Part shown: positions 8,940 through 24,605 of the stretch, piece by piece
How positions within the stretch are numbered: position 1 is the first letter of the stretch
How the letters are laid out: the number at the start of each line of letters is the position of its first letter
Source of the DNA: Aquisphaera giovannonii
Lineage (GTDB): Bacteria > Planctomycetota > Planctomycetia > Isosphaerales > Isosphaeraceae
DNA: 64,000 nucleotides
Direction of reading: 5' to 3'
Assembly (NCBI RefSeq): GCF_008087625.1
Contig: NZ_CP042997.1
Location: 5,394,001-5,458,000 of the forward strand
Position numbers and translations under genes: made by a program
The notes under the pieces: generated by a model
The model's database searches: none
What the model saw: the letters and a program-made list of their open reading frames with translations, nothing else
Told to the model about the DNA's origin: nothing

Positions 8940-9357
8940 GACCCAGCGAAGGGACGCCGAAGTCCGCGGCCGTTCGTCTCATCGTCGCGGCCGTGACGCT
9001 CCTGGCCGTCACCGGGCGAGCGCCGTCTCAGGAAACGCCCGAGCGACGGGGTCGCCCGCGGCGATGCCGGTGACGACCAACGCCGCCCCGCCACTGCCCG
9101 ATCCCGGCGTGCCCGCCGCGTCGGCCGACCCGGAGGATCCGACTCTCACGTACGGGCTCGTCACCCGACCGACGATCCCCTCTCCCGCGGTGGCTCAGGA
9201 CGGAACAATGTACACGCCCGGTGAGGGCGTGACGATTTCTCTCCTCAATAACACGTCGCGGCTCTGGCTCTCCGCCAGCCTTTCGGCGCTGATGCTATTC
9301 AACTCTCAGCGTCCCTTCACCTCAGGCGCCCCGTTCTTTTTGCTACCTGCTTCGTAA
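8940..9357 (+). pseudogene. porin-like outer-membrane protein, 5' fragment
   Basis: A hydrophobic leader (VRLIVAAVTLLAVTG, about 8970-9020) is in a different frame from the following segment, which reads from about 9064 as TYGLVTRPTIPSPAVAQDG, MYTPGEGVTISLLNN, LWLSASLSALMLF and FTSGAPFFLLPAS. This is the amino-terminal part of the planctomycete porin-like family whose carboxy-terminal part is found 4.85 kb downstream (14205-15067). The TAA that ends the fragment lies within the GTAAGCG at the start of the inserted DNA. No good start codon is visible and one frameshift separates leader and body. The link between the two pieces rests on family recognition and on their order and orientation. Confidence 0.7.
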
Positions 9358-9360
9358 GCG
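9354..9360. repeat. putative IS66 terminal repeat end (GTAAGCG)
   Basis: GTAAGCG begins exactly where the porin reading frame stops matching its family. IS66 elements typically start with GTAA(G/C)CG. No inverse copy was seen near 14200, so the pair is incomplete. Confidence 0.5.
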
Positions 9361-9558
9361 TAATACGGAGTACGCCCCTCCAACCGCAGCGACCCTCCGG
9401 TCAGTGCCTTGGCCTCTTCCTGGTCGATCGCCCGTGTCCGGTGTATCGACGGGTCCCGATCGGAGAGAATGACTGGTAAGGCCCGGTGGCTCGGGGCCGC
9501 CGGCTCGGGCGTAACACATCGGGGAACCCCCTCGATCTCCCGAACAGGGCGGACGGCG

Positions 9559-10014
9559 ATGGCGAAGCGCAAGGACGAAGGCGTTGGCGATACCCGGCTG
9601 GTTTTCTCCGCGCACAACACGCACCACGAGCGCTGTGGTGCCCCGCCTCGCCTGCGCAACACCGACAACCCCGGGCTCTACCACGGCTACTTCGAGAACC
9701 GCTACGGCGAGCAATTCGTCTTCACGTTCGACAGGGCGGCGGGGACCGGAACCGTCTCGGGCGGCGACCTCGGCTGGGCCGAGCCCAGGACGTTCACCCG
9801 CGGCCTGCTCGACGAGGCCCTGCGCAGCACCCGGGACCTCGCCGCGCAGGTCCAGGGGGACGACGCGAGGTCACAGCTGCCGGCGATTGACCACGCCCTG
9901 GCGCTGGGACGACTCACCGGCCTGACCGGCAAGGACGAGATCGTCTGGCTGCGGGCGTGCCTGGAGGCCTGTGCCGGCCTCGCGGAACCGTCCGGGGACC
10001 GTCACCCGGCCTGA
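9559..10014 (+). CDS. conserved hypothetical protein, possible IS passenger
   Basis: A soluble protein of 151 residues with no signal peptide or membrane helix. The start ATG 9559 gives MAKRKDEGVGDTRLVFSA; 50 further in-frame residues upstream look non-coding. The core (HNTHHERCGAPP, LYHGYFENRYGEQFVFTFD, GTVSGGDLGW) is compact, and a helical end follows (KDEIVWLRACLEACAGL). I recall similar small proteins in planctomycete genomes but know no function for them. It runs head-on into the 412-residue gene, with stop codons seven bases apart. Confidence 0.6.
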   Translation: MAKRKDEGVGDTRLVFSAHNTHHERCGAPPRLRNTDNPGLYHGYFENRYGEQFVFTFDRAAGTGTVSGGDLGWAEPRTFTRGLLDEALRSTRDLAAQVQGDDARSQLPAIDHALALGRLTGLTGKDEIVWLRACLEACAGLAEPSGDRHPA

Positions 10015-10021
10015 TCACCGT

Positions 10022-11260
10022 TCACAACGTGGTCACGGCGAACCCCAGATCCTGGCACCGCCGCACGAAGTTGTCGGGGCGGGAGTGGCTCTTGATCAGC
10101 AGGTAGCCGGGCGGGGCGCCCGGTTCGAGGTAGCCCTTGAGCTGCGGGTGCTCGCGGATAGCGGCCAGGACCTCGGCGCTCTCGGGCTTGACCAGCGCAC
10201 TGCACCGGCGGATGCCCACCGTGCCGCCTACCTTCGACTTTGTGCCCAGCAGGTCCGCGACGGGCGAGGGGAGCGGCTCCAGGTCGCGCAGCGCCTCACG
10301 CAACTCTTCACCCGGGGCGCTGCCCGCGGGCGACGCGGCCAGTCGCTTGCGGTCGAGCCGGAACTCGTAGACTTGATCGACCCGCCGGATGATGGCGTGG
10401 CGGAACAGGGGCACCAGTGTCTCCCAGTTCAGCCCCGCTCCCGCAAATACCGAGAGATCCGGCTGTGCCTTCATCACCGTCGCCAGCTCCGGCGCGGGGA
10501 GTGGTGGTCCGAGACCGAGCATCGACAGACCGGTCGGGCTGGGGAACCACCAGCCGGTCTTTTCTTGCTCGGCGTAATAGGCCCACTCGGCGGTATAGAG
10601 GGCGGAGACCAGCGCATTGCGGCCCCGGGCATCGAGCTTCTTCTGCCATCCCGCGACATCGACGCTGTCCACTCTCAGCCTGAGCCCGTGGGCCGCTTGC
10701 ACCAGGTCGTCCTGGGGGAGTCGTATGAAGTCGTGAAGCACCCGACCCACCTCGGACTCGACCAGGGCCAGTCCACGGAAGCACGAGAAGAAGAGCGACA
10801 GCAGCTCGGTCAGGCCCCAGTCCTCCGGGGCCCTGGCGTAGTCAAACGGGTGTCCGGTCTGGGACCCGACGAGCCGCCTGACGGCCCGGCGCGCGATCGC
10901 CGGCAGCTTCGCGTCGTCGTGAGCCCAGAACGTTGCGAGGTTCGGCCCCGCCCCGTAGCGATTCTGCAGGTCGAACCGGAGCACGTCCGCCGCGACGAGG
11001 AACGTCCCGACCCGCTCGGTGAGGTACTGGTTGAAGTTCGCCTCCTTGCCGATGCGGTTCACGTCGGTCATGTTCGGCGTGCCGTCGTGTTTGGCCTGGA
11101 CACGCCCGGACAGGAGGATGCAGGCCACGGCGCGGTACCAGTAACCGCCGTACGGCGAGCGATGTTCCTTCGGCTCGCCTTTCCGGATGTCGGCGACCGT
11201 TCTGGTCGTCTGGCCCTCGACGAACCGCCGGAGGGATTTGGGGAGGCGCGGCTGGCCCAT
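10022..11260 (-). CDS. hypothetical protein with helicase-associated (XPB_N / Helicase_C_3-like) architecture
   Basis: A protein of 412 residues without signal peptide. The C-terminal half (about 225-412) reads like the non-ATPase domain found beside bacterial XPB-type helicases: QPDLSVF, RRVDQVYEFRLDRKRLA, EALRDLEPLPSPVADLL, then an alternating-strand end (SALVKPESAEVLAAI, GYLLIKS, RRCQDLGFAVTTL). No Walker A, Walker B or helicase motif is present. The N-terminal half has GYWYRAVACILLSG and a Trp/Tyr-rich helical segment. It lies 68 bp downstream of the 227-residue gene on the same strand, so the two probably form an operon. A role in DNA handling is possible but only an inference. Confidence 0.6.
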   Translation of the reverse strand: MGQPRLPKSLRRFVEGQTTRTVADIRKGEPKEHRSPYGGYWYRAVACILLSGRVQAKHDGTPNMTDVNRIGKEANFNQYLTERVGTFLVAADVLRFDLQNRYGAGPNLATFWAHDDAKLPAIARRAVRRLVGSQTGHPFDYARAPEDWGLTELLSLFFSCFRGLALVESEVGRVLHDFIRLPQDDLVQAAHGLRLRVDSVDVAGWQKKLDARGRNALVSALYTAEWAYYAEQEKTGWWFPSPTGLSMLGLGPPLPAPELATVMKAQPDLSVFAGAGLNWETLVPLFRHAIIRRVDQVYEFRLDRKRLAASPAGSAPGEELREALRDLEPLPSPVADLLGTKSKVGGTVGIRRCSALVKPESAEVLAAIREHPQLKGYLEPGAPPGYLLIKSHSRPDNFVRRCQDLGFAVTTL

Positions 11261-11328
11261 CGGCGGGGCTCCGACTCACATGAGCAATGGAACAAGTTCG
11301 GGACCGACACCGGCACGAATGCGGGCCG

Positions 11329-12012
11329 TCACGGCGAGACGTTCCAGACCTCGACCAGCCGCCAGCCCGCGCGGGTGCGGGCGACCACGCCGCCGATGTC
11401 CCAGCCGGCCTTGCAGGCACGGGCGATCGCCGCGGGGACGGGGATCGGGCCGATCTCCGAATCACCGCCGAGCAGCGATTCCAGCCAGATCTGCTTCGGC
11501 TCGACCCGCTGGATGACGAAATGCCCCTCGATCTCCTTGCCGGATCGGGCCGGTCCCGTCGCCTCGATCCAGTCGTCGATCGTGTCCAGCAGCTTCTGGC
11601 TGGCCGGCAGGTCGCGGGCAGCCTCACGGACGCGCCCCCGGGCCGCCTCCTCGACCTCGGTGTAGCCCCGCGCGACCAGCCACCGGGTTAGCTTGTTGAC
11701 GACCGTCCCGGCGGCCTTCATCGTCTCGTTGCCGGCGATCACCTTGTGGGGCATGAAGTAGCCGAGGAACTCCGAGAACCCGGAGGCGATGTCGGCGGCG
11801 CCGTACGTGCCGCAGTAGGTCCCCCCGGCCCGGGTGACCGCGTCGTAGTCCTCGCGGGAGTGGTCGGGCCAGTAGCGCTCGAGGTATCCCCGGTAAAGGT
11901 CGATGATCCCCTCGTACCTGGCGTACGTCTTCGGGCCGAGCTGGGCCTCCTGGGCGGCGAGGAACTCCGCGAAGATGTCGTCGATGGTCTTGTCCGGCCT
12001 GGGGGGGCTCAT
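11329..12012 (-). CDS. hypothetical protein with integrase-core-binding-like N-terminus
   Basis: A protein of 227 residues. The start (TIDDIFAEFLAAQEAQLG, KTYARYEGIIDLYRGYLE) resembles the SAM-like core-binding domain of tyrosine recombinases, but no catalytic R..HxxR..Y domain follows. The middle (GFSEFLGYFMPHKVI, AAGTVVNKLTRWLVARGY) continues as helices. The end (AGWDIGGVVARTRAGWRLVEVWNVSP) is beta-rich. The start lies 41 bp beyond the tnpC stop and in the same direction, so transcription from the IS could reach it. Function unknown; DNA binding is plausible. Confidence 0.62.
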   Translation of the reverse strand: MSPPRPDKTIDDIFAEFLAAQEAQLGPKTYARYEGIIDLYRGYLERYWPDHSREDYDAVTRAGGTYCGTYGAADIASGFSEFLGYFMPHKVIAGNETMKAAGTVVNKLTRWLVARGYTEVEEAARGRVREAARDLPASQKLLDTIDDWIEATGPARSGKEIEGHFVIQRVEPKQIWLESLLGGDSEIGPIPVPAAIARACKAGWDIGGVVARTRAGWRLVEVWNVSP

Positions 12013-12053
12013 CGGGTCGTCGGCTCCCGGGGTCGTGTGCGGCTACGCACATT

Positions 12054-13681
12054 CTATCCGGGCCGACGGCGCAGGCCACGCCCCCCTCGGGGCGGTGAAC
12101 CGACCGATACGCAGGCGACACCCTCAGCTCGGCTCGCCGGCTTCATGCGGCCGCCTTCCGGCGCCGCCGGGTGAGACGCGAAACAGACGTCGGGCAGGAG
12201 GCCCTCGAGCTGATCCGCCGGCAGCGACGGCAGGCGACGCAGCACGTCCTGAAGATAAGCGAAGGGGTCGATGTCGTGGTGCCGACAGGTGCCGGTCAGG
12301 GAGTACAGCACGGCCGCCGTGCGGCCGCCCCGGTCGCTGCCCAGGAACGTCCAGTTGCGCCGCCCGATCGCCTGGGCGCGGAGCATCCGCTCGGCGAGGT
12401 TGTTGTCGATGCTCAGTCCCCCGTGCCCGGGGTGGCGACACGGCGCCGCCCAGTTCGACTGCGTGTAGGCGATCGCCTGGCCGATCGGGCTCTTGGGCAG
12501 CGCGTGCCGCTCCTGCTCGGTCAACCACTCCCCGAACGCCGTCAGCCGAGGAACGGACTCCCGCTGCCGCAGGGCCTGACGGTCCTCGGCGGAGAGCGTC
12601 GCGCCGGCGGTCTCGATGGCGTAGAGCCGCCGGATGCGGGCCAGCGCCGCGTGCGCCGGCAGCGGCGCGGACGTCCGCGCCTCGTAGAACTTCCGCCGCG
12701 CGTGTGCCCAGCACGCGACCTCGATCACGTCCGACCCGGCGTACAGCCTGTGGTAGCCGGAGTACGCGTCGGCCTGGAGGTAACCGCGGTACCCGTCAGG
12801 AACCGCGCCGGACCGTCACGGGTGTGGCGCGGCGTGTAGTCACAGACGACGTAGGGATGGCGGGCGTCGCCGATGTAGACCCGGAACCGGCCCTTGCGGG
12901 TCCTGGTCAGACTCCGGTCCAGCACCGGAACCGGGGTGTCGTCGGTGTGGATGATGTCCGGGAGGAGTACTCGCCTGACCATCAGGTCATGGAGCGGCGT
13001 GAGCAGCTTGACGCAGGAGGCCATCCATCCGCAGAGCGTGGCCCGAGACAGCGACACGCCGTGGCGGGAGAAGATGTCCTCGAGCCGGTACAGCGGGAGG
13101 TGGTCGGAGAACTTGCTGGTGATCGTCTGGGCCAGCAGGCCCGGGCCGGGCAGCCCCCGCTCGATCGGCCGCGGCGGCTTCTCCGCCAGCACGACGTGCT
13201 CCTGGCAGGCCCGGCAGGCGTACCGAAACAGCGCGTGCACGACGACGAAAAGCGAGGAGGGCACGTACTCCAGTTGCTCGCTCGTCTCCTCGCCGATCCT
13301 GGTGCGTGGGCAGCCGCAATCCGGACAGGGCAACTCGGGGTCGGACAGCGGGTACTCCACTCGCTTGCGGGGCAGGCCCTCGGGGAGCCGCTGTCGTCCC
13401 TTGCGCCGCCAGTGCCTCTTCGGCTTTGCCACCTCCGGCCCGGGCGCTTCCTCCGGCGTGGCCTCGGCGACGTCCGCCGCCGCGTCCTCGGTGAACAGCC
13501 GGAGTTGGTCCGGATCGACGCGCTCCCGCCGCGGGCTGAACTGGCGGCGGAGCACCAGCCCGAGCTGGTGCTCCAGCTGCTCGATCCGCCGTTGCGCCGC
13601 CCGGATCGTCTCCGCCTGCTGGCGGATGATCTCGTGGCACAGTTCAAGGTCGGTGGGCGGGGGCGTCGCGTGCTCACACAT
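12054..13681 (-). pseudogene. tnpC: IS66 transposase TnpC, single frameshift
   Basis: Two overlapping frames together give a full IS66 transposase. Frame 1 (13681 to about 12793) has the coiled N-terminus, the zinc-finger-like CPDCGCPRTR and CRACQEH motifs, and HTDDTPVPVLD with the first DDE aspartate. Frame 2 (about 12790 to 12054) has QADAYSGYHRLYAG, CWAHARRKFYEAR and NNLAERMLRAQAIGRRNW with the catalytic Glu. Moving from FLTG to YRGYLQ needs one extra base at 12790-12794, so one base appears to have been lost, unless this is a sequencing error. The C-terminal tail after VCFASHP is longer and unlike other IS66 ends, suggesting a lost stop. Confidence 0.9.
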
Positions 13682-13720
13682 GCCAGGATTGTAGCGGCGC
13701 GAACGCGTTCGAAGAGGCCG

Positions 13721-14095
13721 TCAGCGCGGATTCTCGACGGGCTCTCGGGAGTACCGCCGCTGTCGCCGGACGCTGCCCAGGTCGACGCCGTCGAGGATCA
13801 TCATCAGGTCGGCCGCCTTGACCTCCACGCCCTTGGGCCCTCCCCCCGTCGCCGTGGCCGGGAAGCGGAACGTGCCCTTCTCAAGCCTCTTGTACCACAG
13901 GGCGTAGCCGTCCTTGTCCCAGTAGAGGACCTTCACCCTGTCGCCGCGCCGGCTCCGGAACACGAACAGGCGGCCCGAGAGCGGGTCGAGGGTCAGGGAC
14001 GACTGGACCAGGGAGGCGAGCGAGTCGAACCCCTTGCGCATGTCGGTCGCATCGGCGGCGAGGAAGACGCGTACGGTCGGGGGCCAGCTCAGCAC
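13721..14095 (-). CDS. tnpB: IS66 family accessory protein TnpB (Orf2)
   Basis: A protein of 124 residues with the family signature ADATDMRKGFDSLASLV, LFVFRSRRGDRVKVLYWD and YALWYKRLEKGTFRFP. The start is GTG 14095, overlapping the tnpA stop (GTGCTGA). It is required together with TnpC for IS66 transposition. The gene is intact even though both neighbours are broken. Confidence 0.93.
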   Translation of the reverse strand: MLSWPPTVRVFLAADATDMRKGFDSLASLVQSSLTLDPLSGRLFVFRSRRGDRVKVLYWDKDGYALWYKRLEKGTFRFPATATGGGPKGVEVKAADLMMILDGVDLGSVRRQRRYSREPVENPR

Positions 14096-14205
14096 GGGCG
14101 GCCCTCCAGCACGGCGAGGACCTCGCCGAGGGTCCGCGGGTCGAATCCGTGGGGCACCCGCACGATCGTGCCGGCTGGTAGCACGATCTCGATGGCAGGG
14201 ACGGG
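14089..14205 (-). pseudogene. tnpA: IS66 tnpA, 3' stump only
   Basis: Only about 38 C-terminal codons remain (PAIEIVLPAGTIVRVPHGF, then LGEVLAVLEGRPC), overlapping the tnpB start as usual. Upstream of about 14205 the strand-opposite porin sequence takes over. The helix-turn-helix part of TnpA is missing, as is the IS end. Confidence 0.75.
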
Positions 14206-15067
14206 CCGGGGCTGTTGGTCTACTTCGCCTACGGGGAGCTCGTCAACGAGGAATAGCGGTTCGTCGGCGGCCTGATGCAGGACATCGATAATCCCCTCAG
14301 CCCCACGGTTCTCACCCTGGCGAAGCTCTACGGCTCGGGCAACACCGGGTCGTATCGTGGCGCCCTCCGTCTGGAGCGCTACTTCGAGATCACCGACGCC
14401 TCGCAGGTGACACTCCAGGCGGGCATCGGCGAGCCGATCGCCACCCTGGTGACGGCCCCGACCGGCCGCATCAACGAGGACAACGGGTGGCCCAATGTCG
14501 AGGGCCGGGCTGCCCTCGGCTTGGGCGAACTGCGGCAGATCGGGGCGGCCAAGGCACGGCCCTTCGAGACGGGGCTCTCCGGTGTGGTCGGACGGATTCG
14601 CACGACCCGCACGCTCTTCGCAACGCCCGACACGAGACCCCTCCGGGCGGTGGACGACGTCTGGGGCCTCGGCGCCGACCTGCGATGGTCGATCACCGAT
14701 CGCCTCGGGCTGGCCGGCGAGTTCGACGTGGGCCGGACCCTCGGCGAGTACAACGGCACTCTGCTCCAGAACAACGACACGAACACCCCGGGCCCGATCC
14801 GGGGCCGGGGCGGCTGGGGAGAGGTCTTCGTCTACCTGACCGAGACGCTGCGCTGGCATGTCGGGTTACGGCATCGACGCCCCGTTCGTTCGCGACCTCG
14901 CCCCGACCCAGATCGCCCGGAACCAGGCGTTCTTCAATACGCTCGTGTGGGATGTGAACCGGAACTTCCAGGTGGGATTCGAGGTCGACTACCGCAAGGC
15001 GAGCTACATCCGCTTCCTCGACAACGAGGGAGTCAATTTCATGACGCAGTTCGTCTGGAAGTTCTGA
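14205..15067 (+). pseudogene. porin-like outer-membrane protein, 3' fragment (stop and frameshift)
   Basis: The frame from about 14206 reads GLLVYFAYGELVNEE, an in-frame TAG at 14254-14256, then RFVGGLMQDIDNPLSPTVL. Beta-strand-rich sequence follows up to ETLRWHVG near 14866. There an extra T (GGGTTACGG) shifts the frame, and the protein continues as YGIDAPFVRDLAPTQIARN and NFQVGFEVDYRKASYI to a terminal aromatic strand, MTQFVWKF. A final Phe on an amphipathic strand is typical of outer-membrane barrels. It ends 11 bp from the stop of the convergent amidohydrolase gene. With the 5' fragment at 8940-9357 it makes one disrupted gene. Confidence 0.8.
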
Positions 15068-15078
15068 GCCCCGCCCGG

Positions 15079-16977
15079 TCAGTCGGAGCAGGTGTACCCG
15101 ATCAGACGGGCGAGCTGCTCGATCGCGGCGTGCTCAACACGCAAATCGCTCACCGTGTCGGCGAGGCCCGGGCCCCGGCCTCGCGGGGCGGCGGCCGCCC
15201 TCGTCGCCGCGGCGACCGGTTGGAGCCGTCCCTCGAGCATGGTGCCCCAGACGGGGATGTCCTTGATTTTTGCGGGATGGACCTCGTACGGGTCCTGCTC
15301 CAGGACGGTCAGGTTGGCATCCTTGCCCACCGTGATCGAACCGACGCGTCCCTCCATGCGGACGGAATACGCGGCATCGAGCGTGACGGCCTTCAGGGCC
15401 TGGTCGAGCGTGACGCGGTGCTCCGGACCGGCGACCTCCCCCTCGGCCGTGAGCCGGTTGACCGCCGCCCAGACGAGCTGCAACGGCTTCGCCGGGGCCA
15501 TCGGCATGTCGGAGTGGAAGGAGAACGAAACGCCGTTCTCGACCACGTCGCCCATCGGGACCATGTTCCGGGACCGCTCGGGGCCGATGCCTAGCTTCGC
15601 ATACCGGCCGGCGAGCGCCGTGACGTAGTAGGGGTTCGAGCTGACGATCCCGCCCAGCTCGCCCCAGCGCCTCACCTGCTCGGGCTGTGCGAACCCGAAG
15701 TGCACCAGCACGGTGCGGTGGTCCTTGCGTGGCTTGCGCCTCATCGCCTCCTCGATCGAGCTGAGCACGACGTCCAGGCCGGCGTCGCCGTTGTTGTGGA
15801 TGTGGATCTGGTAGCCGGCGTCCCAGTAGGTCTGGAACATGAAGTCGAACGACGGCGGGTCGACGATCCACGCGCCGTGGTGGCCGTCGGTGTAGCCGCC
15901 CTTCATCTGCATGAGCTGGCTGTAGATCGCCCCGTCGGTGAAGAGCTTCACCTGGTTGGCCAGGTACGCGGTGCGGCCCTTGCCCCAGCCCTCGACCTTG
16001 CGGGTCTCGGCGAGCAGGCTCGCCGCGTCGTTGGGCTTGATCGCGAAGAAGCTCTTCCCGTCCCCGATGAAGTAGTGGTTGAACGGCGTCGCGTCGTCCG
16101 AGTACGCCGCGTTGATCGCGTCCTGCATCGGCTTGCTCACGAACCCGCCCGGCTCGCAGGCGAGGGTGATTCCGTTGCGGTGATAGTACGTCTTCGAGAA
16201 CTCGAGCCCTTCGCGGAATTGCTCGGCCGAGGCCATGTAGGGCGCGACTCTGGGATGGATCGCGAGCATCCCCTGCTCGTAGAAGTGGCCCTCCGGCAGG
16301 CTGGCCTGCGCCCTCGCGGACTCGCCCAGGCCCTTGATTAGGGCTTCGTCGATGCCGGTGAGCTTGAGCGCAGCATCGTTGAGAAACACCTCGTGCGCGG
16401 AGCGGTGCCAGACGATCACCGGGACGTCGGGGGCCATCCTGTTGAGCGTCTCGCGCGACATCGCGCCGTGGAAGTAGTGGTGGTAACCCCAGGTCACGAA
16501 GGGCGTCTTGTTGTCCTTGTGGCCGGCGAGCGCCTCCCTCAGGCGCTCCCGGTAGCCCGCCTCTTCGCGCACCGCCGGCGAGAAACCGTCGATCGCGTCC
16601 CAGTCCTCGATCGAGATGACCTTTGTGTTCATGGTCAGCGCCGCCAGCACCGGATGGACGTGCTGCTCGACGAAACCGGCGATGACCACCTTGCCCTCGA
16701 AGGTCGAGTCGACCTTCGCGTCCTTGCCGGCGGCGGCCTCGCACTCGGCTCGCGTGCCGACCGCGACGAACTCGCCGCCGCGCACCGCGATCGCTTCGGC
16801 CCGCGGCTTGTTCGGGTCCATGGTCAGGAAGGTCCGGGCGACGTAGATCGTCGTCAGGCCCTCTCTCGCGGCAAGCCGGCCGGCGAAATCCTGAAGCGTG
16901 GGCGTCTGCTGAGCCACGACCTGCCCGGGGGCGAGCATGCACGCCAGCACGAATATCGCGGAGAGGCGGTTTATCAT
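15079..16977 (-). CDS. exported YtcJ/NfdA-like metal-dependent amidohydrolase (1)
   Basis: A protein of 632 residues from ATG 16977 with a signal peptide (MINRLSAIFVLACMLAPGQVVAQ). It is an Amidohydro_3 protein: N-terminal strand IYVARTFLTMDP, metal motif VEQHVHP, a mid-protein metal site around QIHIHNNGDA, VLVHFGFAQP, HSDMPMAP near the end of the barrel, and the closing GSITVGKDANLTVLEQDP. YtcJ relatives include N-substituted-formamide deformylase. The substrate is unknown. It overlaps the upstream amidohydrolase gene by four bases (ATGA), indicating translational coupling. Its location should be periplasmic. Confidence 0.9.
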   Translation of the reverse strand: MINRLSAIFVLACMLAPGQVVAQQTPTLQDFAGRLAAREGLTTIYVARTFLTMDPNKPRAEAIAVRGGEFVAVGTRAECEAAAGKDAKVDSTFEGKVVIAGFVEQHVHPVLAALTMNTKVISIEDWDAIDGFSPAVREEAGYRERLREALAGHKDNKTPFVTWGYHHYFHGAMSRETLNRMAPDVPVIVWHRSAHEVFLNDAALKLTGIDEALIKGLGESARAQASLPEGHFYEQGMLAIHPRVAPYMASAEQFREGLEFSKTYYHRNGITLACEPGGFVSKPMQDAINAAYSDDATPFNHYFIGDGKSFFAIKPNDAASLLAETRKVEGWGKGRTAYLANQVKLFTDGAIYSQLMQMKGGYTDGHHGAWIVDPPSFDFMFQTYWDAGYQIHIHNNGDAGLDVVLSSIEEAMRRKPRKDHRTVLVHFGFAQPEQVRRWGELGGIVSSNPYYVTALAGRYAKLGIGPERSRNMVPMGDVVENGVSFSFHSDMPMAPAKPLQLVWAAVNRLTAEGEVAGPEHRVTLDQALKAVTLDAAYSVRMEGRVGSITVGKDANLTVLEQDPYEVHPAKIKDIPVWGTMLEGRLQPVAAATRAAAAPRGRGPGLADTVSDLRVEHAAIEQLARLIGYTCSD

Positions 16978-18698
16978 CGTTTCGAGTCTCCGTGCCGGGC
17001 GCGGTAGACGGTCTTCCCTTCCTTGATCGTCTCCAGCACCCGGATGGTGTTGATCCTCATCGGGTCGATCGTCAGTGGGTCGTCCGAGAGGATCACCAGG
17101 TCGGCGAGCTTGCCGACCTCGAGCGAGCCCTTCCTCCCCTCTTCGAAGTGCTGGTAGGCCCCCCACAGGGTGATGCACTTGAGCGCCTCCATGGGCGTCA
17201 ACCGTTCCGCCGGGCCCATCACCTTCCCTTGACGCGAGACGCGGTTGACGGTGGCCCACATGACCTGGAGCAGGTTGGGCAAGGCCACCGGCGCGTCGGT
17301 GTGGCTGTTGACCCTCAGGCCGCGGTCAAGGGCGGAGCGCATGGGCGAGATCTGCTGGGCCAGTTCAGGGCCGATGATCCGGTCGTACCAATCGCCCCAG
17401 TAGAAGGTGTGCATGGGGAAGAGCGAGGCGAAGACGTCCAGCTTCTTCAGGGCGTCGAGCTGATCCTTACGGACGAACTGGCCGTGGATGAGGGTGTGGC
17501 GGCGATCGGCTTTCGGGTACCTGACGTCGACGGCGCGGAGGGCGGCGATCATCTGGTCTACGGCGGCGTCACCGTTGGCGTGGACGTGCGTGGGCCATCC
17601 CTTGCGGTAGGCCTCGTCGAGGAGTTCGACGATCGATTGCATCTCGGGGATGGCCGGGTAGCCCTTGTAGCCGGGCTGCTGGCCATCGGGCGGGACGAGG
17701 TAGGGGACGGTGCGCCAGGCGGTGCGGCCCTGGGGAGAGCCGTCGAGCGTGATCTTCAGTCCCGCGAGGCGGTAGCGGTTCCGGTAGGAGTGTCCGAACC
17801 AGGGCGTGTCGAGCAGAGACTTGGCCGTGTAGTCGACGTAGGACATGACGTCGATGTCGAGCAAACCACGCTCCGCGGCACTCACGAGGTCCGGCTGCTG
17901 GAAGGCCATGAGGCGGCCCTCGTTGACCGTCGTGTAGCCGAACGACTTCGCCAGCTCGAGCCCGCGACGGAGGAAGTAGTCCTTGTCCTCCGGGGTCCGC
18001 GCGTTGATCGCCGGGATCATTTGGGGGATGCTCGCTAGCTCCTCGAGCACGCCGTTCGGTTCCCGGCTCCCCTCCCGGCGCCGGATGACGCCCCCCTCAG
18101 GGTCGGGCGTCTCCGCCGTGTAGCCGACCTTCGCGAGCCCCACGCTATTCATCGCGCTGAAGTGGCCGGAGATGTGCACGGCGATGACCGGCACGTCTTT
18201 CGATACCTTGTCGAGGTCATCGCGAGTCGGGTGGCGACCGAGCAATGCGTCGTCGTAGCCGATGCCGAAGATCCATCCGGTGCGGCCGACGTCCGGGCCG
18301 CGTGCGAAGTCCTTCAGCTTCTCGACCACGTCGTCGATGCTCGCAACGTCCCCGTCGGGCGAGGCGAGGAGATTGGCGCCGACGGCCTGCGACCCGAAGC
18401 CGAGGAAGTGGGCGTGCCCGTCGACGAAGCCAGGCAGCAGCGTCTTGCCAGCCAGGTCGACCACCTCCGTAGCCGGCCCCTGGTGAGTACCCTGGAACTC
18501 GGCCCGGCTGCCAACGCCGAGGACCTTTCCGTCTTTCACCGCCACGGCCTCGGCGGTCGGCTGCGCGTCGTTCACGGTGACGATCGGGCCGCCAGTGTAA
18601 ATCGTGTCCGCGACCTGGGCCCGGGCAGCCGAGCCGAACGCAGCGACGGAATAGGCAGCGATGATCCTGACCAGAAATGCCCTGCTGCTCGCGATCAT
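16974..18698 (-). CDS. exported YtcJ/NfdA-like metal-dependent amidohydrolase (2)
   Basis: A protein of 574 residues from ATG 18698, chosen because it gives a good signal peptide (MIASSRAFLVRIIAAYS to SAARAQ); an ATG at 18770 would add 24 residues. Family marks are DTIYTGGPIVTVND, LLPGFVDGHAHFLGFG, THVHANGDAAVDQM, HTLIHGQFV, NSHTDAPVALPN and GSLEVGKLADLVILSDDP. It is related to but clearly different from the following amidohydrolase, with which it is coupled by a 4-bp overlap. The intervals around it point to a unit with the UrtA-like gene 0.5 kb upstream. The substrate is likely an amide or formamide, by family only. Confidence 0.9.
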   Translation of the reverse strand: MIASSRAFLVRIIAAYSVAAFGSAARAQVADTIYTGGPIVTVNDAQPTAEAVAVKDGKVLGVGSRAEFQGTHQGPATEVVDLAGKTLLPGFVDGHAHFLGFGSQAVGANLLASPDGDVASIDDVVEKLKDFARGPDVGRTGWIFGIGYDDALLGRHPTRDDLDKVSKDVPVIAVHISGHFSAMNSVGLAKVGYTAETPDPEGGVIRRREGSREPNGVLEELASIPQMIPAINARTPEDKDYFLRRGLELAKSFGYTTVNEGRLMAFQQPDLVSAAERGLLDIDVMSYVDYTAKSLLDTPWFGHSYRNRYRLAGLKITLDGSPQGRTAWRTVPYLVPPDGQQPGYKGYPAIPEMQSIVELLDEAYRKGWPTHVHANGDAAVDQMIAALRAVDVRYPKADRRHTLIHGQFVRKDQLDALKKLDVFASLFPMHTFYWGDWYDRIIGPELAQQISPMRSALDRGLRVNSHTDAPVALPNLLQVMWATVNRVSRQGKVMGPAERLTPMEALKCITLWGAYQHFEEGRKGSLEVGKLADLVILSDDPLTIDPMRINTIRVLETIKEGKTVYRARHGDSKR

Positions 18699-18964
18699 CG
18701 GCAAGATCCCGCTGAGAGGAAGGAATTCACCAGCCAAGTGGTTTCTGTGAGAGGTACGGCTGACCGTCATGCCTCACTCCTCGGTGAGGATTTGTCTCGG
18801 GTGGTGGGCGAGTCACTCGATGCAGCCTCTGTGAGGGCGGCCGTCGGTTGAGATGCCTGCCATGGCCAGCCCTTCGCAGCGGCCGGCGCAAGCCCCGTGC
18901 TTTTCTGGGCGGACGGGACAGCGCCTCTTCAAATATGGATCATCCATGAGGTCTCGCCGCTGGC

Positions 18965-19168
18965 TCAACTGATTGCCAGTTTCGCCAGCTGGAGAACTCC
19001 CCAGCCAGACAACATCCCAAGAACGTAGGTCCCCAGGATGAGGAAGACCTTCGGGGTGTCCATGGACCAGAACAGAAGCGACACGCTCACGGTGTCGTGA
19101 TTCTGGATTGAAAAGACGATGACCAGCAACAGCAGGGCAAGTGTCAAGGCGCCCACCAGGTATTTCAT
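18965..19168 (-). CDS. LapA-domain (DUF1049) small membrane protein
   Basis: A protein of 67 residues from ATG 19168. Helix 1 (YLVGALTLALLLLVIVFSIQ) is followed by the family motif NHDTVSVSLLFW, then helix 2 (VFLILGTYVLGMLSGWGVL). This matches the LapA/YciM-partner family. An in-frame extension to 19249 would overlap the neighbouring gene and is not needed. It lies 17 bp after the UrtA-like gene and is probably in its operon. Confidence 0.85.
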   Translation of the reverse strand: MKYLVGALTLALLLLVIVFSIQNHDTVSVSLLFWSMDTPKVFLILGTYVLGMLSGWGVLQLAKLAIS

Positions 19169-19185
19169 GATTGTGCTCGCAAGGA

Positions 19186-20562
19186 TCAAGAGTTGATGTC
19201 GACAACGGCCCCTTTGGTGAGTCCGCCCTGCGTCCAATCGCAATGCCAACCTGGGAACGCTACCTGCGGGTAAGGCTCCGGGGCGATCCAGTCCGCGGAT
19301 TCGTGGACGACGTCAAACTGGCGGTCGTCCCGCACCCTGCCCAGGCGGAACCGCTTGTACGTATGCTGCGTCCGCGGGTCGATCTTGGCCTTGCCGCCTG
19401 GCGCCTCGAACTCAATCCCGCTGCGGAGCGCGTCGAGGACACTTTTCACGTCGAAGCTCCCGGCTTTCTCCACCGCAAGCTTCCACAGGTACACCTGGGA
19501 GTGCGCGGCCTCGATCGGGTCGTCTGTCACGCGGTCATAGCCGAACTCCCGCTGAAACCTGCCCACGAAGGCCCGATTCCGCGGGGTGCCGACGCTCTGG
19601 TAGTAGCTCCAGGCGGCGAGATGCCCCTTGACATGGGACGGGAGGATGCTGCGTAATTCGTCCTCGCCGACGCTCGTGGCCACAACCGGGACCTTGTCGG
19701 CAGTGATCCCCTGCGCGGCGAGCTCGCCGTAGAATCCGACATTGCCGTCGCCGTTGACCGTGCTGACGATCACGTCCGGATCCGCTTTCCGGATTTGCTC
19801 GATGGCCTGCTTGAAATCGCGTTGCCCCAGGGGCGTATAGCCCTCCCCGGCCACGTCGAAGCCTCGGCTCTTCAGGTACTTCTTGATGATGAAATTGGCC
19901 GTCCTCGGGAAGACGTAATCGGATCCGAGGAGGTAAAACCGTTTCCTGGAGCCGCCCGCTTCGGTCATGAGCCAATCGACCGCGGGCAGGATCTGCTGGT
20001 TCGGCACCGAGCCCGTGTAAACAATATTACGTGAGGACTCGTTGCCCTCGTACTGGACCGGGTAGAAGAGCAGTCCGTTCAGCTCTTCGAACACCGGCAG
20101 CACCGCCTTGCGGCTCGCGGAAGTCCAGCAGCCGAAGACGACAGCAACCTTGTCCTCGCTCAGGAGCTTGCGCGCCTTCTTCGGGAAGACGGTCGTGAAC
20201 CGGGATCGGCCGTCCTCGACGACAGGGTCGATCTGCCGACCCAGGACGCCGCCGGTCGCATTGATATCCTCGATGGCCAGGAGCTCCGCGTCGCGCAACG
20301 AGGTCTCGCTGATCGACATCGTGCCGGTCTGGGAGTGCAGAATGCCCACCTTCACCGTGGGGAGACGGGAAACCGTGGGAATACACCCCGTGAGCACGAT
20401 CGGCGCAACGGCGTTCGTTGCCGTCAGAGCGAGCCCGCGGCCCCACTCCTTGAGGTGATCGCGACGTGTCGATCCTCCGTTATGAATGCTGGTCCGCGTC
20501 AATATCGTCTCCCTCCGGATGATCGAGGCCTTGCCGTCGAGCTCAACGGCGGCTCCGGACAA
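19186..20562 (-). CDS. urtA: urea/short-chain-amide ABC substrate-binding lipoprotein (UrtA/FmdD-like)
   Basis: A protein of 458 residues with a lipobox (PIVLTGC, Cys near residue 60) after an unusually long N-terminus; a TTG near residue 20 is an alternative start. The periplasmic-binding fold shows VKVGILHSQTGTMSISETS, RDAELLAIEDINATGGVLG, VVFGCWTSASRKAVLPVF, GLLFYPVQYEG, LLGSDYVFPRTAN and DDPIEAAHSQVYLWKLAVE, all typical of UrtA/FmdD. No permease or ATPase genes (urtBCDE) are in the window, so it is an orphan binding protein. It may feed a distant transporter or act as a sensor. It sits between AIM24 and LapA with gaps of 12 and 17 bp. Confidence 0.88.
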   Translation of the reverse strand: MSGAAVELDGKASIIRRETILTRTSIHNGGSTRRDHLKEWGRGLALTATNAVAPIVLTGCIPTVSRLPTVKVGILHSQTGTMSISETSLRDAELLAIEDINATGGVLGRQIDPVVEDGRSRFTTVFPKKARKLLSEDKVAVVFGCWTSASRKAVLPVFEELNGLLFYPVQYEGNESSRNIVYTGSVPNQQILPAVDWLMTEAGGSRKRFYLLGSDYVFPRTANFIIKKYLKSRGFDVAGEGYTPLGQRDFKQAIEQIRKADPDVIVSTVNGDGNVGFYGELAAQGITADKVPVVATSVGEDELRSILPSHVKGHLAAWSYYQSVGTPRNRAFVGRFQREFGYDRVTDDPIEAAHSQVYLWKLAVEKAGSFDVKSVLDALRSGIEFEAPGGKAKIDPRTQHTYKRFRLGRVRDDRQFDVVHESADWIAPEPYPQVAFPGWHCDWTQGGLTKGAVVDINS

Positions 20563-20574
20563 CGACCCGTCCGA

Positions 20575-21261
20575 TCAGAACGTGGTTTGAGATGGGTAAT
20601 CCGCGTCGCCGCGTTGGACCATCATCCAGTAGCGCCAGTAAGGCGCCGGGTTGAGGAGGACCTTACCCGGACCCTCATAGACCCGGACCCAGCCTTCGCC
20701 GGATGTGTACCTGCCAAAGAAGTTCTTCGTGGGGCGACGAATCTTGAATGAGACGTCCGGAGTCCTGGCAATGACGTACATCCCCTCCGCCACCAGCGAC
20801 TTGCCCCTCTCCAGGGTGAGCTCCTCGACCGGCCCCCGCGTGGTGAGCGCGACTTTGCCGTGTCCGCGCACCTTGGTTTGTAGGTAGATGAGCCCCTCGC
20901 CGGCATAGAGGGATGTCAAGAACCTCTCGCGATGATAGCTAACCTCGACGCTCCCTTCGGACGCCCAATACGTACCGCGCTCGAGGATCCAGCTCTCGCC
21001 GTCGAGATCGAGGATGTGGAAGCCTCCCAGGGACGACTCCAACGTGATCACTCCCGTGCCCGTGTAGGTCGGACGGTACACGGCCTCATCGGCGAGCAGT
21101 GACTTGATCAGCCCTCCGATGGACGGGATCAACCGGGAATGCATCGTGATCTCGCCCGTCATGTAGCTGAACGCCCCTGCCTCGGCCCGCGCCGTCTCAT
21201 TATCGAGATGAATGTCGACGTACTGCATGCCCTCCAGTTTGTGCACCCTGAATTCGGCCAT
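20575..21261 (-). CDS. AIM24 family protein
   Basis: A protein of 228 residues, all beta-rich with no signal: MQYVDIHLDNETARAEAGAF, YMTGEITMHSRL, RPTYTGTGVITLESSLGGFH, ERGTYWASEGSVEVSY, YLQTKVRGHGKVALTTRG and VIARTPDVSFKI. This is the AIM24/DUF124 fold. Bacterial members often neighbour membrane-stress genes; the biochemical role is not known. It is only 12 bp upstream of the UrtA-like gene, so co-transcription is likely. Confidence 0.9.
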   Translation of the reverse strand: MAEFRVHKLEGMQYVDIHLDNETARAEAGAFSYMTGEITMHSRLIPSIGGLIKSLLADEAVYRPTYTGTGVITLESSLGGFHILDLDGESWILERGTYWASEGSVEVSYHRERFLTSLYAGEGLIYLQTKVRGHGKVALTTRGPVEELTLERGKSLVAEGMYVIARTPDVSFKIRRPTKNFFGRYTSGEGWVRVYEGPGKVLLNPAPYWRYWMMVQRGDADYPSQTTF

Positions 21262-21397
21262 GGTTATTCCCTTGCGACCGACGGTCTCGGCATTGAATTC
21301 CCGCGATTGCCACGACGCGCACGGTGGGCTGGATCGAGGGGCGTGGGGAGAGCACTCGAAGTCAGGAGGCCTTGGGCTCGCGGCCTGATGTCGCTCG

Positions 21398-22189
21398 CTA
21401 CTCGGTCTCTTCGATCATGATCTTGTATAGGTTCTCGAACGGCTCGGGAGAGACGCTTACCTCGCCCCGGAATGGGTTGTCCATGGCGGCGATCAGGAAG
21501 ATCATGGTCCCCAGGAAGAAGGCGAGCAGCCCGCCCAGGACGAGTTGCGTGATGAACCGCATTTCGAACATCCAGACCATCGCGAGATTGATGACGGCGC
21601 CCACGATCACGACATACCACATCACGGCGGGGATCCCGGTCGTCACCGCGTTCAGTCGCGACTGTCGGAGCGCGATGAAGGTGTTGAACTGTCGGAGCGT
21701 CTCGGCGTGGTGGATCTCGTCGGCCTTGGTCTGAGGGTTGAATTCACGGAGCTTCTCCTGGAACGCGACAAGCCTGACCCTGCCACCCTGCGGGATCAAG
21801 CCTCTTCGCTGGAGCGGCCAGGAGTACTTGATGACGGAGCGGCAATAGTCGCGGAGGAGCCACTGGAGGTTCTGTGCGTGGGGTTCCGGGTAGCTCCTGC
21901 AGTCCTGGTAGAGCGCGGTGAGCGCGTTCACCTCGCTCGAGACGCTGGCTTCGACCTGGCTGAAATTCTGATACGCGGCGACCGCGATCAGGCCGAGCAG
22001 CAGGCCGTAGAACACGCCGAAGCAGGAGAGGACATAGCCGACGATGTCGTTGGTGCCGGACCGCGACCGCACGAACAACCGCAGGATGGGACGGACCAGG
22101 ATGCAGCCGATCCAGAAGAAGCCGACGAATGTTCCCGCGATCAAGAGGGCCAGCTGATGGGTCGGGACATCATAGATCCAGTAGAACAT
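21398..22189 (-). CDS. DUF4239 membrane protein
   Basis: A protein of 263 residues from ATG 22189; ATG 22222 would add 11 residues and cannot be excluded. Four membrane helices lie at about 12-32, 47-73, 187-207 and 213-235. A long soluble helical loop (75-185) sits between pairs, and MDNPFRGEVSVSPEPF ends the family core. DUF4239 proteins resemble bestrophin-type channel topology, but transport has not been shown for this one. It lies in the minus-strand block between DUF937 and AIM24 genes. Confidence 0.85.
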   Translation of the reverse strand: MFYWIYDVPTHQLALLIAGTFVGFFWIGCILVRPILRLFVRSRSGTNDIVGYVLSCFGVFYGLLLGLIAVAAYQNFSQVEASVSSEVNALTALYQDCRSYPEPHAQNLQWLLRDYCRSVIKYSWPLQRRGLIPQGGRVRLVAFQEKLREFNPQTKADEIHHAETLRQFNTFIALRQSRLNAVTTGIPAVMWYVVIVGAVINLAMVWMFEMRFITQLVLGGLLAFFLGTMIFLIAAMDNPFRGEVSVSPEPFENLYKIMIEETE

Positions 22190-22352
22190 CGTGAGAATCC
22201 CCAAGCTCCGCTCGACGTCCATCCACCTCTTCGTCCCGTCAGCTTGTCCGGCTTCGCGACCTCCGGACGGGTCTGCTGACCTGACCCACTGTGGCGTGGG
22301 GCAGATCCCCCCACGCTCTCGGCGGGTCAAAACGTGCTCGGACGTGCCCGCG

Positions 22353-23426
22353 TCAGCCCAGCCCGGCGAACTTGGTCACGAGGACATCCAAAGCCGGCTT
22401 GAGCTTGTCCGCCACGCCGGGAATGGCCAGGACCTTGGCGACCAGGTCCTTGAGCTTGCCGAGGTTATCCGAGGTGATTGACTTCAGGCTCGCCTTGCCG
22501 GAATCCGGCAGCTTGTCCCAGCCGGCCCTGAGCGTATCGAGGGTTGCATTCAGACCCTGGATCCTGGGGAGGGCCGCCTCCGCCGTCGGCACGTCCTTGA
22601 TGTCGGTCAGGTAGAGGGTGGCCGACTTGTAGGTCTCGGCTAGGGTCTTGCTGAGGGCTGGGGCGTCGACAGCGGGTAATTCGACGTTCTTCTTGGTCGG
22701 TGCTGGTGCCCTGGGCGGGGTGGTCGCAATAGGGACCGACTCGCCTCCGGGACCGGCTGACGGCTGGTTCTGCCCGAACAGCCACCAGAGCCCTGCCGCC
22801 AGCAAGCCGAGCAAGACCAGCGGCAATAACCACTTCGGCAGCCCGCCTTCGGTCGTGCCGGCCGCCGTCGACGCGGCGGCGTGCCCTGCGTCGGCGAACC
22901 GAGACAGCGAGGGCATCTGGAATCCCGCCGGCAGCGCGTGGGCGATCGACTCCTTGTTCTCCGCAAACAGGCTGGTCAGCCCCTGGGCGGTCAGGTTTCG
23001 CCCCTTGAACTGGCTGAGAATCGACGAGAGGACGAATGGGCCGACGAAAGTCAGCAGCTTCTTTGCGAGGTCGGGGTGGCCGCCGATGAACTTTGCCAGG
23101 GCACCGGCCAGCGCCGCGAGCCCGCCCGAACCGAGGAGCGAGCTCAGGATGCTGCCCCCCTTCTTCTCCATCTCCGCCGGGGACAACCCGCCACCCAGGA
23201 TGTCGCCTGGGCCGCCCAACGAGCCGAGGTCGGGGCTGCGTAGCGTCGAGACGAACTTCTCCGCCCCCACCGGACTCGACGCCAGTCCCGCGAACGCCGA
23301 GAGTAGAGCAGGAACGGCCGCCGATACGGCTCTCGAAGCGTCCTCTTGGCCCAGACCGAGGAGCGAAGCGAGCTTGCCCAGCATCTCGGGAGTCATCTGG
23401 TTCTTGAACAGTTCGATCAGGGTCAT
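22353..23426 (-). CDS. DUF937 protein with one membrane helix
   Basis: A protein of 357 residues from ATG 23426. Residues 1-190 are the DUF937 region: MTPEMLGKLASLLGLGQEDA, SAAVPALLSAFAGLASSP, GGSILSSLLGSGGLAALAG and VLSSILSQFKG. These are Gly/Ala/Ser helical repeats like those of YidB-type proteins. A helix (about 198-217, LPKWLLPLVLLGLLAAGLWW) is followed by a Pro-rich linker and a helical C-terminus. It is the first gene of the minus-strand block and diverges from the AraC regulator. Confidence 0.85.
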   Translation of the reverse strand: MTLIELFKNQMTPEMLGKLASLLGLGQEDASRAVSAAVPALLSAFAGLASSPVGAEKFVSTLRSPDLGSLGGPGDILGGGLSPAEMEKKGGSILSSLLGSGGLAALAGALAKFIGGHPDLAKKLLTFVGPFVLSSILSQFKGRNLTAQGLTSLFAENKESIAHALPAGFQMPSLSRFADAGHAAASTAAGTTEGGLPKWLLPLVLLGLLAAGLWWLFGQNQPSAGPGGESVPIATTPPRAPAPTKKNVELPAVDAPALSKTLAETYKSATLYLTDIKDVPTAEAALPRIQGLNATLDTLRAGWDKLPDSGKASLKSITSDNLGKLKDLVAKVLAIPGVADKLKPALDVLVTKFAGLG

Positions 23427-23615
23427 GATGTGGGCCCTTCCCCGGTGGTGTAAACTGACGGACGATGTCCCGGATGGAAACCGCCGCGACAGTTGGTTCC
23501 TGAGGTGCGCCAACAGGATTTAGATTCATTCATGATTCTCTATCATTGGTAATCGGCTCCAGAAAAGACCAGAAACCGCAATCCAGCCAGCGCGACGACG
23601 CGTCAGGTGGGCCCC
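23427..23615. promoter_or_regulatory. divergent control region between DUF937 and AraC genes
   Basis: This 189-bp region separates two divergent starts. At 23519-23556 it has a clearly AT-rich stretch (attcattcatgattc, tctatcattggtaatc) with interrupted repeats of GATTC/ATGATT, unlike the surrounding 65-70% GC. It is the natural place for promoters of both directions and for AraC binding. I cannot assign exact -35/-10 elements. Confidence 0.4.
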
Positions 23616-24605
23616 ATGGAGAACCAGCGGTTGCGAGAGCCAGTCGCTGTCGCCCGCCCGACGCCGGGCGTGAGCGCGCTGGAGACGGATGACCTCGACC
23701 GGATGTCGCAGGCGTTTTTGAGGTGGGATCACCAATTCCTGCAGCTAAGTCGCGGCCCATTCCGCGGGCGTATCGTGTTCGCCGAGCTGGGCGGGGTCCA
23801 ACTGTTCGACCTCGAGGTGAATCAGGCGCTCCAGATCCGCGGGGAACACGCCCCGGACTCCTTCGTCTTCTCGCCCGTGCTGCCGTCGAACTCCGGAGCA
23901 CTCTGGCTGGGCCGCAGTCTGAAACCGGGCATGATCAACATCAGCGGTCCGCACCTGGATGTGAACCACCGCACGAGTCGCGACTATCGCCACACGGCGT
24001 GCTCCGTCCCCAGGGAACTCCTGGAACGCGTAGGCGTCGGACTGATCGGCGCCGACTTTGGCCGGCTATTCGAGGTCAGGGCCCCGGAGATCGATCCGGC
24101 ACACGCCGAGGCCCTCGTAGACCGGTGGCGAGCCAACCTGAATGCACTCTCCTCGCCGGGGCGGATGAGGGCGGAATGTCATGGCGGCGGGATCCAACCC
24201 CACGGACTTGTCGCGGAACTCGTTCGTGTGCTCGCGGCTGGTCGCGTCGCGGACCCCGTCCGGCTGACGTCGCGTCACAGGGCTCGGATCGTTCGGGAGG
24301 CGGTGGACTACGCCGAGTCGTTCCCCCCGGGACGAGTCAGCACCCTGGACCTGTGTGAGCTGACCGGCGTCAGCGAGCGGAGCCTCCAATACGCGTTCCG
24401 GGAGGTCACGGGGCTGAGTCCCAAGGATTATCTGAAGGTGCTGCGTCTCAACCAGGTGAGGCGCGAGCTCCGGGCACCCGGCCGCGATTGGGGCCAGATC
24501 GGCGCCATCGCCTGCAAGTACGGGTTTGATCGCCCGGGCCGCTTCTCGGCCGACTATCGTCGGCAATTCGGAGAACTGCCTTCAGCCCTGGTCAAGTGCC
24601 GATGA
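23616..24605 (+). CDS. AraC family transcriptional regulator
   Basis: A protein of 329 residues. ATG 23616 is preferred over GTG 23607 because CAGGTGG then sits five bases upstream. The N-terminal domain resembles the cupin-like sensor of AraC/EutR proteins. The C-terminal pair of helix-turn-helix motifs is at about 225-325: VSTLDLCELTGVSERSLQYAF, GLSPKDYLKVLRLNQVR, GAIACKYGFDRPGRFSADYRR, then FGELPSAL. Its divergence from the DUF937-to-amidohydrolase block makes that block the likely target. The ligand is unknown. Confidence 0.9.
   Translation: MENQRLREPVAVARPTPGVSALETDDLDRMSQAFLRWDHQFLQLSRGPFRGRIVFAELGGVQLFDLEVNQALQIRGEHAPDSFVFSPVLPSNSGALWLGRSLKPGMINISGPHLDVNHRTSRDYRHTACSVPRELLERVGVGLIGADFGRLFEVRAPEIDPAHAEALVDRWRANLNALSSPGRMRAECHGGGIQPHGLVAELVRVLAAGRVADPVRLTSRHRARIVREAVDYAESFPPGRVSTLDLCELTGVSERSLQYAFREVTGLSPKDYLKVLRLNQVRRELRAPGRDWGQIGAIACKYGFDRPGRFSADYRRQFGELPSALVKCR

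Follow-up and report, generated by a model that had tools for sequence, protein, structure and literature searches.

A conserved planctomycete gene unit that brings together a urea-type substrate-binding protein, a bestrophin-like membrane protein and an AIM24-domain protein

UrtA, a urea-binding protein, normally serves a transporter. Binding proteins in general serve ABC transporters and some sensor kinases, and TorT-TorS, LuxP-LuxQ and AmiC-AmiR are binding-protein sensors. Nine residues lie near urea in UrtA and eight of them (W120, S122, Y141, Q144, E146, Y190, N246 and S274 in P. marinus numbering) are important, according to the published account (PMC10392092). AIM24 adjoins TerD stress genes elsewhere (PMC5822837). 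In the literature that we searched, no bacterial function turned up for AIM24 or for DUF4239, and we found no description of a UrtA/DUF4239/AIM24 unit, nothing on AIM24 with UrtA or on an AIM24/DUF937/LapA/DUF4239 operon, and nothing related to a bacterial bestrophin with a periplasmic binding protein. Here we describe a conserved gene unit, undescribed in that literature, whose core consists of genes for UrtA, DUF4239, AIM24 and often a LapA-domain protein.

The core lies in a window of 64,000 nucleotides (the whole stretch of DNA that was analysed) from a 10.5-Mb planctomycete genome, within a block of seven co-directional minus-strand genes that diverge from one AraC-family gene. The second replicon of this genome is most similar to plasmids from Planctomyces sp. 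SH-PL62 and Paludisphaera, which makes Isosphaerales its probable order. A preliminary description of the window had laid out the block in this way, and its gene positions agree with ours, as does the 4-base overlap of the two amidohydrolase genes (ATGA). Profile matches place the genes in PF07969 (twice), PF13433/TIGR03407, PF01987, PF14023, PF06078, HTH_18 and LapA_dom, and the PF01987 match of the AIM24 protein scores 134.8 bits against a gathering score of 25.7. The starts of DUF4239 (22189) and DUF937 (23426) were adjusted by comparison with relatives, and the TTG start codon of UrtA is uncertain, at either 20562 or 20502. By eye, the N-terminus of UrtA carries a twin-arginine motif (TRRDHLK) and a lipobox (LTGC). 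The nearest named models for the AraC-family regulator are EutR and AndR, with scores far under the cut-off. Counts of promoter-like and terminator-like sites in the block were near those in shuffled sequence.

Table. Features of the gene block and of the adjoining porin remnant (positions in the window)
Feature	Position	Strand	Evidence
Porin gene, N-terminal remnant	9172-9348	+	36% over L153 porin residues 51-109, E 1e-7
IS66 element between the porin pieces	12054-14095	-	TnpB PF05717; TnpC PF03050 in two ORFs/frames
Porin gene, C-terminal remnant	14200-15067	+	Aligns with residues 159-447 of an intact relative
AH2, Amidohydro_3 enzyme, signal-peptide-like start	15079-16977	-	PF07969, E 4.9e-55
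AH1, Amidohydro_3 enzyme, signal-peptide-like start, likely start 18698	16974-18770	-	PF07969, E 1.6e-102
LapA-domain membrane protein, 67 aa	18965-19168	-	PF06305, 28.4 bits (cut-off 28)
UrtA, urea-type substrate-binding protein	19186-20562	-	PF13433 and TIGR03407, 507.2 bits (cut-off 492.75)
AIM24-domain protein	20575-21261	-	PF01987, E 4.3e-39
DUF4239 / Bestrophin-like 4-TM membrane protein	21398-22189	-	PF14023, E 2.9e-69
DUF937 protein	22353-23426	-	PF06078, E 8.9e-18
AraC-family regulator, divergent	23607-24605	+	HTH_18 PF12833, E 7.2e-20

For a class-wide comparison, the same 397 genomes were searched with AIM24, UrtA and DUF4239. The UrtA scores fall into two groups: 27 genomes reach E <= 2.5e-136, and ten further matches range from 3.6e-120 to 9.7e-117, nine of which sit in long frames of 791-1130 aa. 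DUF4239 likewise gives two groups, one of 23 strong matches (E <= 2.2e-98) and one of 24 weaker matches. Every genome with a strong DUF4239 match is among the 27 genomes with a urea-type UrtA (P = 1.5e-33 for finding 23 of 23 inside 27 of 397, the genomes not being independent), and AIM24 is present in all 23. The preliminary description had named a lack of co-conservation elsewhere as a result that would speak against it; this objection fails, since UrtA, DUF4239 and AIM24 occur together in 23 of 23 genomes. The other four UrtA genomes have a urt ABC operon and neither DUF4239 nor AIM24.

In 22 of the 23 genomes the genes for UrtA and DUF4239 lie next to each other, separated by a gap of 16-838 bp, and the larger gaps contain AIM24. 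In the remaining genome (G715) the two are split between contigs, and the UrtA contig opens with the last 63 codons of a DUF4239 gene. Three genomes (G563, G515 and G691) have AIM24 on another contig, with UrtA and DUF4239 still paired. The 23 genomes represent five families (f1, f2, f3, f104 and f110), among which the gene orders and flanks differ. Because orders and flanks vary in this way, the linkage is more than inherited synteny, and chance neighbourhood is ruled out by the 397-genome comparison. Across 35 related loci, LapA is present in 16 and DUF937 in 3.

Among 45 genomes of the window's own order, a UrtA match is present in 35 (own genome included), the relatives reaching 49%, and the whole block is found only in its own genome. 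Likewise, for the 30 loci listed from this order (1.5-kb flanks), DUF4239 or AIM24 lies beside UrtA only in the window's own locus. The impression of an unconserved block given by the own order was overturned by a UrtA scan of further genome contigs, whose four loci (59-68%) include AIM24 in every case and DUF4239 and LapA in three cases each. None of 20 loci of other UrtA-like genes from the same order contains DUF4239, AIM24, LapA or DUF937 in flanks of up to 10 kb on each side, several of which end early at contig ends. In a phylum-wide draw of 392 genomes, DUF4239 at E <= 1e-30 was found only in two own-order genomes, a rarity outside the class that rests on sampled genomes.

Other genes recur around the core. 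At f110 loci L162-L168 and L171, the core is preceded by an ABC ATPase and an FtsX-like permease (by eye), which form a conserved larger context. Sulfatase genes lie near AIM24/DUF4239 in 12 of the 35 loci (L143-L146, L151, L152, L158 and L159 among them). A zinc-ribbon membrane protein, roughly 180-240 aa long and with sub-threshold Pfam matches only, is encoded near DUF4239 or AIM24 in 13 of the 35 (for example at L148:6639-7259) and is absent from the window. Neither gene occurs in the 20 control loci, but these controls belong to another order, so the comparison is not clean.

The window UrtA resembles that of the urea ABC transporter UrtABCDE in belonging to the UrtA clade of the planctomycete ABC operons and in having the same nine urea-site residues, but the system differs in that there is no UrtB, the partner is DUF4239 and there is usually no urease. 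The claim of the preliminary description that this UrtA has no transporter holds for the whole genome, which contains no UrtB over the cut-off; its four PF02653 permeases all lie far from its Peripla_BP_5 genes, and two of them adjoin RbsA-like ATPases (by eye). UrtB over the cut-off was found in none of the 23 genomes with linked DUF4239 and in all four UrtA genomes lacking DUF4239, and no UrtC, UrtD or UrtE was noticed by eye among the genes adjoining the core. In those four genomes (G702, G529, G577 and G535), two permease genes and one or more ABC ATPase genes come after UrtA (by eye), and in G577 and G535 urease genes lie beside the urt operon (by eye, with urease alpha confirmed). Urease is present in 5 of the 27 UrtA genomes; among those with linked DUF4239 it occurs only in G000 and G655 and is absent from 21 of 23.

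In a tree made by a quick method, the linked and ABC-operon UrtAs form one clade (SH-aLRT 100), apart from the kinase-UrtA fusions described below, and the four ABC-operon sequences form one set within it (99). Given that linked and ABC-operon UrtAs share one clade, this clade has two alternative membrane partners. Given further that UrtB is absent from all 23 genomes with linked DUF4239 and that the ABC operon is present in all four without it, DUF4239 occupies the place of the ABC transporter. The preliminary description, whose interpretation is supported in part, missed this central point, the pairing of UrtA with a bestrophin-like protein in place of the ABC transporter. When nine other core-linked UrtAs were compared with the TIGR03407 cut-off, three passed (L148, L153 and L176), and L149, L144, L105, L106, L107 and L160 fell under it.

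We compared the urea pockets of these proteins using the residues given in the UrtA account. The window UrtA has all eight important residues plus F192, that is, nine of nine, and it is far closer to UrtA 8tg1 (457 bits) than to AmiC 1pea (174 bits). Among the 23 linked UrtAs, all nine residues are present in 12 and the eight in 17, and the four ABC-operon UrtAs all keep the urea residues. The pocket is altered in six linked UrtAs, namely L149 (N246 changed), L144-L146, L114 and L133, so urea cannot be the ligand in every lineage. L118, which shares its genus code (g338) with L144-L146 and L114, retains the urea pocket, so the pocket changed inside one genus.

Two other kinds of UrtA-like gene were observed. 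All three of the weaker UrtA matches that were looked at more closely (L180:4625-6976, L183:2588-5959 and L187:3392-5893) are Ser/Thr protein kinase-UrtA fusions that keep these urea residues, with a difference at one in L187; judged by sequence, they are likely to be urea-sensing receptor kinases in planctomycetes. The window's own genome also has a second UrtA-like gene (L051, C1 480000-499999) with a changed pocket (WGFNEDQVT), located directly before an MCP gene and followed by CheW and CheR, and its product is probably a chemosensory binding protein.

The membrane partner belongs to PF14023, which now carries the Pfam name Bestrophin-like. PF01062 (Bestrophin) has no match in DUF4239, for which PF14023 is the only match at E <= 0.01, and no PDB entry is related to it in sequence. 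We obtained two AlphaFold models of DUF4239 (four sequences each, pLDDT 69). The best 50 Foldseek matches listed for each model are KpBest and its mutants or VCCN1 (best E only 0.017 and 0.023, TM about 0.4-0.5), where some rows titled only 'membrane protein' were taken as the same KpBest series. VIA gives Z up to 12.3 to bestrophins, with TorS sensor domains and designed bundles also at 9-10 and a warning that helical bundles may reach Z 13 without kinship. On the basis of these models, a relationship between DUF4239 and bestrophins is likely.

Conservation among the linked DUF4239 proteins is highest in TM2, the likely pore helix (90% identity to the window in 21 linked rows). Positive charge predominates in the first loop (3.8 K/R versus 1.2 D/E), which under the positive-inside rule suggests that the soluble domain lies outside, in the periplasm, an arrangement that would suit docking. 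This orientation is opposite to that of the bestrophin soluble domain. Bestrophins (KpBest, VCCN1 and BEST1) thus appear to provide the nearest solved folds to the DUF4239 model but differ from it in that PF01062 is unmatched here, that the charge pattern of DUF4239 suggests an inverted orientation, and that DUF4239 is linked to a binding protein; we know of no bestrophin that is linked in this way.

Some residues follow the linkage to UrtA. At nine DUF4239 positions, a residue that is fixed in UrtA-linked proteins (20 or more of 21) occurs in less than 20% of 20 unlinked proteins, a comparison set from which five more distant rows were dropped. Seven of the nine lie within residues 106-142, a stretch of 37 residues (clustering p 0.0018) that is a candidate docking site for UrtA. 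The closest unlinked DUF4239 (L126, G720, 55%) has lost W110, Y122 and A142, and most of the nine positions are changed too in seven unlinked proteins that adjoin AIM24 (L126, L128, L129, L121, L006, L007 and L127), so these residues follow UrtA and not AIM24. In UrtA itself, R90 is present in all 23 linked proteins, in none of the four from ABC operons and in about 2% of 43 others. R90 and the DUF4239 linkage residues are nominated here as candidate contact residues, and shared descent of the linked versus the unlinked DUF4239 groups may instead be the cause of the nine positions.

The two amidohydrolases are accessories of the core, seen at two other loci. Orthologs of AH1 at 65-70%, accompanied by AH2 and beside the core, were found only in the window, in G459 (L153) and in a Pirellulales MAG (L108); among 263 class genomes, AH1 matches beyond the window and G459 reach at most 50%, and the more distant homologs number 14, at 43-50%. 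Locus L153 comprises AH1, a small membrane protein, HbpS, AH2, DUF4239, AIM24, UrtA, LapA, a divergent AraC gene and an intact porin gene, and L108 comprises UrtA, AIM24, LapA, AH1 and an HbpS-like gene, followed by the beginning of an AH2 that the contig end cuts off. The AraC-family protein encoded at the corresponding place in G459 resembles that of the window in the DNA-binding domain only (40% over 106 aa). Metal-site motifs are kept in both window enzymes, and the best solved relatives of AH1 (3icj and 3igh) are both uncharacterized. The label 'NfdA-like' that had been given to AH1 and AH2 reaches Amidohydro_3 membership only.

The porin gene that was said to follow the block convergently is a broken remnant, split by mobile DNA. 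Its C-terminal piece has one in-frame stop and one frame change and its N-terminal piece is set apart by IS66, which excludes the porin as a working part. The pieces (window 9172-15067) lie about 4.85 kb apart, and two ORFs between them (10022-11260 and 11329-12012) have no Pfam match.

We put at close to an even chance the reading in which the core is a functional unit, with UrtA as a ligand-sensing subunit on the bestrophin-like DUF4239 and AIM24 as a partner. In the mechanism that we infer, with its docking, gating, conductance, in vivo ligand, AIM24 role and shared regulation, UrtA would have been recruited away from the urea ABC transporter. Exported and lipid-anchored, it would bind its periplasmic ligand, urea or a related small amide, and dock on the bestrophin-like membrane protein DUF4239. 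Ligand binding would alter the state of DUF4239, most likely by opening or closing a pore, and AIM24, on the cytoplasmic side, would couple or scaffold DUF4239. The unit in the window would have gained two exported amidohydrolases and the AraC regulator for the same compound class. The low fold-match scores, the unmatched PF01062, the orientation suggested by the first loop, the six altered pockets and the lack of urease in 21 of the 23 genomes count against this reading. Such a unit would share with TorT-TorS, LuxP-LuxQ, AmiC-AmiR and the UrtA-kinase fusions the use of a periplasmic-binding-protein fold for sensing and not for uptake, but the partner of UrtA is here neither a kinase nor an antiterminator, and no AmiR antiterminator is among the Pfam matches of the block's genes. 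More tentatively, and as something that we hold less likely than not, UrtA as a free periplasmic binding protein and DUF4239 as a bestrophin-like pore may form a bacterial ligand-gated channel, with the UrtA surface around R90 docking on DUF4239 106-142. Urea would open this channel, or other small amides would do so where a lineage has re-tuned the pocket.

Other readings of the same genes were weighed. UrtA could hand urea or an amide to DUF4239 as a new uptake route that replaces UrtBCDE, and in keeping with this, DUF4239 sits where other members of the same UrtA clade have their ABC subunits, and TM2, the likely pore helix, is the stretch that varies least among linked proteins. However, we see no energy source for such uptake, channels of the bestrophin type conduct ions, and 21 of the 23 genomes are without a urease to use urea; we regard this route as unlikely. 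We give an equally low probability to the view of the preliminary description, in which the whole block scavenges amides under AraC control, with UrtA and the amidohydrolases acting on one substrate and the other genes as membrane components. AH1, AH2 and the core do recur together in G459 and the Pirellulales MAG, where HbpS separates the two enzyme genes; G459 also contains a divergent AraC gene and an intact porin. The proposed amide-hydrolysis route covers only a minority of core loci. The enzymes are at only two other loci, 21 of the 23 genomes showed no close AH1 next to the core (some contigs being short), and the window porin is broken.

A third alternative makes AIM24-DUF4239-LapA an old envelope-maintenance unit in which UrtA is merely a co-regulated lipoprotein that makes no contact. 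AIM24-DUF4239, in some cases with LapA, occurs without UrtA at at least seven loci, and the TerD stress genes that neighbour AIM24 elsewhere (PMC5822837) fit such a role. The window AIM24 has in common with the AIM24/TIGR00266 proteins found with Ter stress genes the PF01987 domain and membrane-protein neighbours, but it scores 52.2 bits against a TIGR00266 cut-off of 96.6. Against this alternative, UrtA and DUF4239 stay paired in the three genomes where AIM24 has moved, and the residues that track UrtA linkage are specific; we consider it very unlikely.

If the reading of UrtA as a sensing subunit on DUF4239 is true, an ABC transporter would have been repeatedly swapped for a bestrophin-like protein, which would be a new use of both families. 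The swap would retain the same binding protein, with its pocket altered in some species. The docking proposed in this reading predicts that R90 of UrtA and W110, Y122 and their neighbours in DUF4239 matter. The core would then offer a handle on AIM24 and DUF4239, and it suggests an undescribed form of cell-surface sensing of small nitrogen compounds in some planctomycetes.
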